Source: Micromonospora pattaloongensis (GTDB lineage: Bacteria; Actinomycetota; Actinomycetes; Mycobacteriales; Micromonosporaceae). Taken from it: a stretch of DNA of 64,000 nucleotides. Both the position numbers and the translations under genes were made by a program. Below, one piece after another: positions 5,599-6,702 of this stretch. Position 1 is the stretch's first letter, and each line of letters starts with the position of its first letter. The DNA lies in assembly GCF_900107255.1 (NCBI RefSeq), contig NZ_FNPH01000001.1:496001-560000 (forward strand). Reading direction: 5' to 3'. The notes under the pieces are model-generated. The model ran no database searches. It had not been told where the DNA came from and was given only the letters and a program-made list of their open reading frames with translations.

Positions 5599-6702
5599 AT
5601 GCGCTGGGACAACCTGTCGGCCCGACCCGATCCGTCGGCTCGGCCCGGCACGGACCTCCCCCCGAGGGCGGCGCCAGCGGCTCCACCCCTGCCGCTGGCG
5701 CTGCCCGGCGCGACCGTCCGCACCTTCGACACCCCCGGCTTCGCGGGCATGACGTTCTACGAGGTGCAGGCAAAGTCCATCATCAACCGCGTTCCCGGCG
5801 CGTCCCGCGTCCCTTTCGAGTGGACTATCAACCCTTATCGCGGGTGTTCTCATTCGTGCAGTTACTGCTTTGCGCGCAATACGCACACCTACCTCGATCT
5901 CGATGCCGGGCTCGACTTTGACAGCAAGATCGTCGTCAAGGTCAACGCGGGTGAGCTGGTGCGGCGGGAGTTGGCCGCGCCGAAATGGCGGGGCGCGCAC
6001 ATCGCGATGGGCACCAACGTCGACTGTTACCAGCGCGCCGAGGGGCGTTACCGGCTGATGCCGCAGATCATCTCCGCGCTGCGCGACTTCGCCAACCCGT
6101 TCTCGATCCTGACCAAGGGCACCCTGATCCTGCGCGATCTGGAGCTGCTCCGGCAGGCCGCCGAGGTGACCCGGGTCGGCATCTCGTTCTCGATCGGCTT
6201 CCTCGACGAGCGGATGTGGCGATCGGTGGAGGCGGGCACCCCGAGCCCGCGTCGGCGGCTCGATGCCGTGCGCGCGCTCACCGACGCCGGCTTCCGGGTC
6301 GGCGTGCTGATGGCGCCGATCCTGCCCGGGCTCACCGACACCGACGAGTCCATCGAGGAGACGGTCGCGTCGATCGCCGCCGCCGGGGCGGTCAGCATCA
6401 CCCCACTGCCGCTGCACCTGCGCCCCGGCGCCCGCGAGTGGTACGCGGCCTGGCTCGGCCGGGAGTTCCCGCACCTCGTGCCGCACTACCGGGAGCTCTA
6501 CCGGAGCGGGTCCTACCTGCCGCAGACCTACCAGCGCGAGCTCGTCGCGCGGGTCCGGATGGCCAGCCGGCGGCACGGGGTGCACCGCGCGGAGCCCGGC
6601 GAGGCGCGCCAGGTGCCGACCTCGCCGGAGGAGTCGCGGACCCTGCGCACCCGCCCGCACCGGCCCGTCGAGCCCGCCGGCGAGCAACTGACGCTGCTGT
6701 AG
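5599..6702 (+). CDS. Rv2578c-family radical SAM protein (SplB-like)
   Basis: A 367-residue radical S-adenosylmethionine protein. The 4Fe-4S motif CSHSCSYC gives Cys83, Cys87 and Cys90, in the CX3CX2C spacing, within NPYRGCSHSCSYC. Further family signatures are AMGTNVDCYQ and ILTKGTLILRD. The family is related to spore photoproduct lyase and is DNA-damage-inducible in mycobacteria; its reaction is not established. The start is the ATG giving MRWDNL, the conserved family N-terminus. Many relatives carry an intein at the Cys motif; this one has none, but codons around the motif are strikingly AT-rich compared with the rest of the gene. An SOS box overlaps the promoter region. The CoA-binding gene follows 27 bp on. 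Confidence 0.9.
   Translation: MRWDNLSARPDPSARPGTDLPPRAAPAAPPLPLALPGATVRTFDTPGFAGMTFYEVQAKSIINRVPGASRVPFEWTINPYRGCSHSCSYCFARNTHTYLDLDAGLDFDSKIVVKVNAGELVRRELAAPKWRGAHIAMGTNVDCYQRAEGRYRLMPQIISALRDFANPFSILTKGTLILRDLELLRQAAEVTRVGISFSIGFLDERMWRSVEAGTPSPRRRLDAVRALTDAGFRVGVLMAPILPGLTDTDESIEETVASIAAAGAVSITPLPLHLRPGAREWYAAWLGREFPHLVPHYRELYRSGSYLPQTYQRELVARVRMASRRHGVHRAEPGEARQVPTSPEESRTLRTRPHRPVEPAGEQLTLL

Follow-up and report, generated by a model that had tools for sequence, protein, structure and literature searches.

The 64,000-nucleotide stretch of DNA that we analysed (hereafter the window) carries an intein-free allele of an Rv2578c-family radical SAM gene, which is single copy in the genome of the window organism, a member of Micromonosporaceae and the sole genome of its genus in our comparison set. 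Assignment to this family, already proposed in the original prediction, was borne out by the NCBIfam model NF038135, which matches residues 1-329 of the product at 522.2 bits against a cut-off of 430 and whose CxxxCxxC signature is present as CSHSCSYC; Pfam Radical_SAM (PF04055) matches the product at 57 bits. The protein falls below the threshold of the PA0069 family of radical SAM proteins (NF033668; 244.5 bits, cut-off 360). Inteins of 163-379 aa occupy the junction between Tyr89 and Cys90 of the CxxxCxYC motif in 32 distinct Micromonosporaceae alleles, and the profile of the intein-containing Rv2578c family (NF038136) aligns with the window protein from residue 90 onward. That family has the host protein and the insertion point in common with our gene, but its members carry the intein, whereas the window allele, which indeed has no insert between residues 89 and 90, scores 583.5 bits and fails the 700-bit cut-off. 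Residue 88, next to the junction, is Val or Ala in 31/32 intein-bearing and 55/119 intein-free Micromonosporaceae alleles. The Rv2578c-family gene is common to most of the family, and searches of the g16 genomes (G111-G128, Micromonosporaceae, 3-6 Mb) gave no match to it.

Table 1 Features of the Rv2578c-family gene and its vacant intein site, in window coordinates.
Feature	Position	Strand	Basis or content
Rv2578c-family radical SAM gene, intein-free allele	5599..6702	+	367 codons; NCBIfam NF038135 and Pfam Radical_SAM matches
Full patch extent in the window allele, codons 72-107	5812..5919	+	A/T-ending codons 13/36 vs 18/331 elsewhere
Patch core, synonymous hypervariable, codons 79-102	5833..5904	+	10/24 A/T-ending codons; raised synonymous turnover
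Cluster-binding motif C-SHS-C-SY-C, codons 83-90	5845..5868	+	Translation; PF04055 match
Codon 88 (Ser, AGT), permissive residue adjoining the insertion point	5860..5862	+	Val/Ala counts across alleles
Vacant intein insertion point, Tyr89/Cys90	5865..5866	+	Inteins of relatives at the same junction

The cysteine motif lies inside a patch of A/T-ending codons (CCT, ACT, CCT, TAT, TGT, TCT, CAT, AGT, TTT, AAT, GAT, GAT and TTT). The original prediction had counted 30 G or C among the 60 bases of 5821-5880; our recount gives exactly 30/60, and the codons that it listed are found at the positions given for them. The cluster is thus real and sits, as had been claimed, exactly on the intein site of relatives, its centre being the insertion point between 5865 and 5866; only its 3' end had been drawn too short, since it reaches past 5880 to about 5904-5919. 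Enrichment of A/T-ending codons in the core (codons 79-102) has a hypergeometric P of 3.7e-6, and only 1 of 20,000 permutations gave a 36-codon cluster as dense as the patch. As a genome background we used the window together with a further 400 kb from this genome (273 gene-like ORFs, 65,777 embedded 24-codon windows), in which 10/24 A/T-ending codons are reached at two places only, namely the patch and an ORF call that lies in intergenic DNA, and in which no second coding stretch embedded in G/C-ending sequence is equally A/T-rich. Together, the permutations and the background scan rule out chance or an annotation artefact. An Rfam search near the patch returned no known structured RNA, the best hit being a chance miRNA match far under threshold. 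The weakly conserved gene start (codons 7-30, window 5617-5688) is also richer in A/T-ending codons across Micromonosporaceae, at about 0.3, which is probably a separate effect of gene starts.

Comparison of 151 distinct Micromonosporaceae alleles, 119 intein-free and 32 intein-bearing, revealed that the patch belongs to the site and is not peculiar to the window allele. Among the intein-free alleles, 25.3% of codons 79-102 end in A or T, compared with 5.8% elsewhere in the gene, with a per-allele range of 0 to 14 of 24; the excess extends from about -12 to +14 codons, and its centroid lies 0.3 codon off the insertion point. The preferred rare codons are position-specific, with AGA at codon 93, ACT and not ACA at 95, and GGA at 82. 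The same codons in relatives that never carried an intein had been named as evidence that would count against an intein link. In 47 alleles from Streptomyces and Streptosporangiaceae, however, the share in codons 79-102 is 10.5% and the patch is absent save in occasional alleles, with a mild excess in Streptomyces at some of these positions (codons 80, 87, 98). Patches without an observed intein do occur where few genomes were sampled: in Nonomuraea antri (L073), an intein-free allele with 13/36 A/T-ending codons in the patch versus 12/307 elsewhere, unlike the other Nonomuraea sampled; in two of six genomes of family f50 (L303 and L304; 50% in the patch versus 9% elsewhere), no intein being seen in any of the six; and in some f2 genomes.

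The patch codons are hypervariable, the opposite of conserved. Parsimony steps counted on a tree built without the patch average 22.0 at 2-fold codons inside it and 5.3 elsewhere (p 3e-7), and 38.8 versus 20.9 at 4-fold codons. Synonymous divergence inside and outside the patch, a comparison that had been suggested as a check, points the same way: for Micromonosporaceae pairs with little divergence outside the patch, the difference inside it is higher by a factor of 2-3.4, whereas the same ratio is about 0.9 for Streptomyces/Streptosporangiaceae pairs in well-populated distance bins. In one such pair (L007 and L186), 3.6% of comparable codons differ elsewhere and 8/30 differ in the patch. Single codon states originated repeatedly, AGA at 93 needing 15 changes and TGT at 87 needing 41, with 17 for the intein state. 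This high synonymous turnover rules out conservation of the codons by an endonuclease target, one of the two origins offered in the original prediction, which was right to tie the patch to the intein but whose accounts of how it arose are not supported. Of the features by which we propose to define a class of vacant intein sites with a synonymous hypervariable patch, two, an A/T cluster centred on the insertion point of relatives and raised synonymous turnover within the clade, are found here; such alleles would in addition be refractory to the endonuclease.

The other origin offered was a co-conversion scar, in which repeated homing and loss would copy flanking codons of diverse donors and leave a mosaic tract round the insertion point. 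Some observations agree with it: patch distances barely track those of the rest of the gene (correlation 0.19, compared with about 0.35-0.68 for other windows), and C-extein codons are strikingly uniform among intein-bearing alleles, as expected if they are carried with the intein. Yet the window allele does not reproduce a donor flank as a block, differing from each of ten intact-endonuclease alleles at 7-10 of 30 bases, and the codons typical of free alleles (AGA AAT ACT) are rare in intein flanks, which have CGC AAC ACG instead. Distant species share identical patches no more often than they share other windows, an absence of excess that also rules out haplotype shuffling among species. Nor is an A/T-rich source evident, given that the ends of the 340-aa inteins are G/C-ending (A/T 10.6% in the first and 5.0% in the last 20 codons). 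A scar of this kind is therefore distinctly unlikely in our view. Next to these G/C-ending intein ends, 48% of the final five N-extein codons in the 340-aa class end in A/T; the patch is thus not part of an A/T-rich module, and import of a mobile module of that composition is ruled out.

We next relate the patch to the state of the intein. Inteins at this site fall into a class of about 340 aa with recognisable LAGLIDADG motifs, a class of 330-331 aa in which these are degenerate, a class of 273-296 aa in which this region is largely deleted, and mini-inteins of 163-171 aa; with one representative per class, Pfam LAGLIDADG_3 is above cut-off in the 340-aa intein, below it in the 331-aa intein and absent in the two shorter ones. 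Judged by split matches, very roughly a third of the Micromonospora genomes are apparently invaded. The A/T-ending share of codons 79-102 is 0.253 in free alleles and 0.283 in the 340-aa class (n = 10 only), compared with 0.094 in the degenerate, 0.083 in the deleted and 0.048 in the mini-intein class. In a pooled test that ignores shared ancestry, the free alleles and the 340-aa alleles are each distinct from those lacking the endonuclease (p about 1e-6). The class comparison may partly reflect such ancestry: nine phylogenetically independent contrasts on supported branches go in the same direction and are not significant. Since flanks of the intact-endonuclease alleles are as A/T-rich as free alleles, above all on the N-extein side, some of the A/T codons may belong to the target and not to escape from it. 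In the assembly of L120, most of the Rv2578c intein reads out of frame, through a frameshift or a sequencing error.

The same localisation and the same dependence on a live endonuclease would be expected from break-associated mutagenesis, in which the vacant site is cut repeatedly and error-prone repair raises the local mutation rate, so that A/T-biased changes survive wherever they are synonymous or tolerated. The A/T bias of the changes, the fast change between close pairs and the replacements at the permissive residue 88 all fit this process. Resection repair, however, should reach hundreds of bases and the excess stops within about 15 codons; end joining would leave indels and none are seen; and the choice of rare codons depends on position (AGA at 93, ACT over ACA at 95, GGA at 82). 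On balance we regard local mutagenesis as an unlikely source of the patch.

Further intein hosts in Micromonospora are DnaB, RecA, NrdJ and GyrB. In DnaB (loci L349-L378), the two intein sites, at the P-loop GK/S and at LRESG/S, form the two strongest interior A/T-ending peaks of 24 intein-free Micromonospora alleles, with shares of 0.347 and 0.347 versus 0.051 elsewhere and synonymous differences of 0.51 and 0.48 versus 0.25; A/T-ending values also climb toward the 3' end of the gene. Alleles that carry an intein at one of these sites (L373-L378) keep the patch at the other, vacant one. The window organism's own DnaB sites have no patch. DnaB of Streptomyces has none either (0.101 and 0.072 at the sites versus 0.055), which rules out a property of helicase motifs as such. 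RecA, invaded in 5/41 genomes, displays slightly raised synonymous differences at one site and no patch at the site VVKNK; this weak signal with few invaded genomes indicates that the patch is invasion-dependent. At the vacant IGVMFG site of RecA (loci L319-L348), the downstream Gly codons +6 and +7 are GGT in 30/30 and 18/30 alleles, in genomes that otherwise favour G/C-ending codons.

LipA, a radical SAM protein of Micromonospora with the same kind of cysteine motif and no intein, has no patch (0.011 A/T-ending at the motif), and a general property of radical SAM motifs is thereby ruled out. Similar patches at other conserved motifs, the second kind of counter-evidence named beforehand, are accordingly lacking at the LipA cysteine motif, and in DnaB they lie mainly at the two intein sites. 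Across 561 gene-like ORFs in the Micromonospora loci, a set deliberately weighted toward Rv2578c and DnaB, embedded patches with 9/24 or more A/T-ending codons number 53 on three intein sites and 7 elsewhere, the latter mostly in non-coding-looking frames. These controls bear on a reading independent of inteins, in which slow or rare codons at the cluster and helicase motifs would be favoured for their effect on folding, cluster insertion or mRNA structure. All three sites do encode key functional motifs, and the mild Streptomyces excess at some of the same codons would suit such selection; but LipA and RecA show next to nothing and little, respectively, Streptomyces has the same motifs without the patch, the identity of the rare codons turns over and is not kept, and alleles with endonuclease-less inteins are without it. 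Selection of this sort is, to our mind, very unlikely to account for the patch.

The place of the patch, its rate and composition, its dependence on intein state, its repetition at two further sites and its absence in controls are direct observations. The reading that we prefer, to which we give about an even chance, is that recurrent homing pressure on the vacant intein site has left the patch as its footprint, vacant alleles surviving by a diverged target. Mobile LAGLIDADG inteins would target the DNA of the cysteine motif, which tolerates hardly any amino-acid replacement. Because an invariant protein motif is read as DNA by the endonuclease, escape would be open only via silent changes and rare permissive residues, and the intein-free survivors would be alleles whose target has diverged by nearly all synonymous changes plus the tolerated replacements at residue 88. 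Default codons end in G/C, so escape would mostly mean rare A/T-ending codons, and divergence takes on the look of A/T enrichment. Successive endonucleases with differing specificity may sustain the codon turnover; after fixation of an intein and decay of its endonuclease, the pressure would cease and codon preference would return the flanks to G/C. From these sequence comparisons we infer cutting by the endonuclease to be the cause, with substitutions that lower cutting or homing and are driven by selection, not by local mutation.

With its width of about 75 bp, the patch is broader than the usual LAGLIDADG footprint. Either a number of endonucleases whose footprints are offset or selection against homology beside the break could account for this. 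The latter idea can be taken further, to a homology barrier in which divergence near the break mainly stops recombinational repair from an intein-bearing donor and not cutting itself. At about 36-40 bp per side, the patch indeed comes closer to the homology length needed for strand invasion than to the footprint of an endonuclease. A cut left unrepaired in a vacant allele would harm the cell, though, so escape from cutting should be favoured first, and we hold such a barrier to be highly improbable as the main cause.

Recurrent homing pressure on vacant sites has a theoretical counterpart. In the homing-cycle model (Barzel et al. 2011, PMC3229294), the resistant X' allele is vacant, mutated in its target and less susceptible to homing, and evasion is reasoned to cost protein function, the motif being conserved. 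Our alleles resemble the vacant, target-mutated alleles that it predicts, but almost every change in them is silent, and such changes recur and are documented in natural sequences at three sites. In haloarchaeal mcm (PMC10643990), where a proline after the MCM-d intein site prevents splicing while cutting still occurs, vacant and occupied alleles likewise differ beside the insertion point, although by one amino acid there and mainly by silent codons over about 75 bp here. Resistance alleles of synthetic gene drives are also reported to be function-preserving cut-site changes that block homing, with a man-made Cas9 in insects in place of a natural bacterial system. A literature search on Rv2578c inteins, intein-site codon usage and synonymous resistance, with most subscription journals outside its scope, returned no prior report of synonymous hypervariability at vacant sites.

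Homing-cycle theory holds that an intein in a conserved motif is hard to escape; our data suggest a cheap route via the genetic code, with a visible trace of silent escape at three sites in two genes. For Micromonosporaceae as a whole, we put at slightly below even the chance of a silent arms race at vacant intein sites, in which homing endonucleases drive synonymous escape again and again over about 75 bp. Rare-codon clusters would then flag sequences that selfish elements target now or targeted once, and could point to them even where a genome has no intein. If so, the coexistence of vacant and occupied alleles would become directly testable, bacteria would offer a natural parallel to gene-drive resistance, and intein or endonuclease targets would be findable from vacant alleles alone. 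It would also caution against treating synonymous sites close to such targets as neutral.

Outside the intein hosts, an acyl-CoA dehydrogenase gene of Micromonospora (L018, 4634-5852, reverse strand) contains an embedded patch of 10/24 A/T-ending codons at the motif TGEVRGAFSMSEPGCGSDV, which may be one more vacant site targeted by a selfish element.
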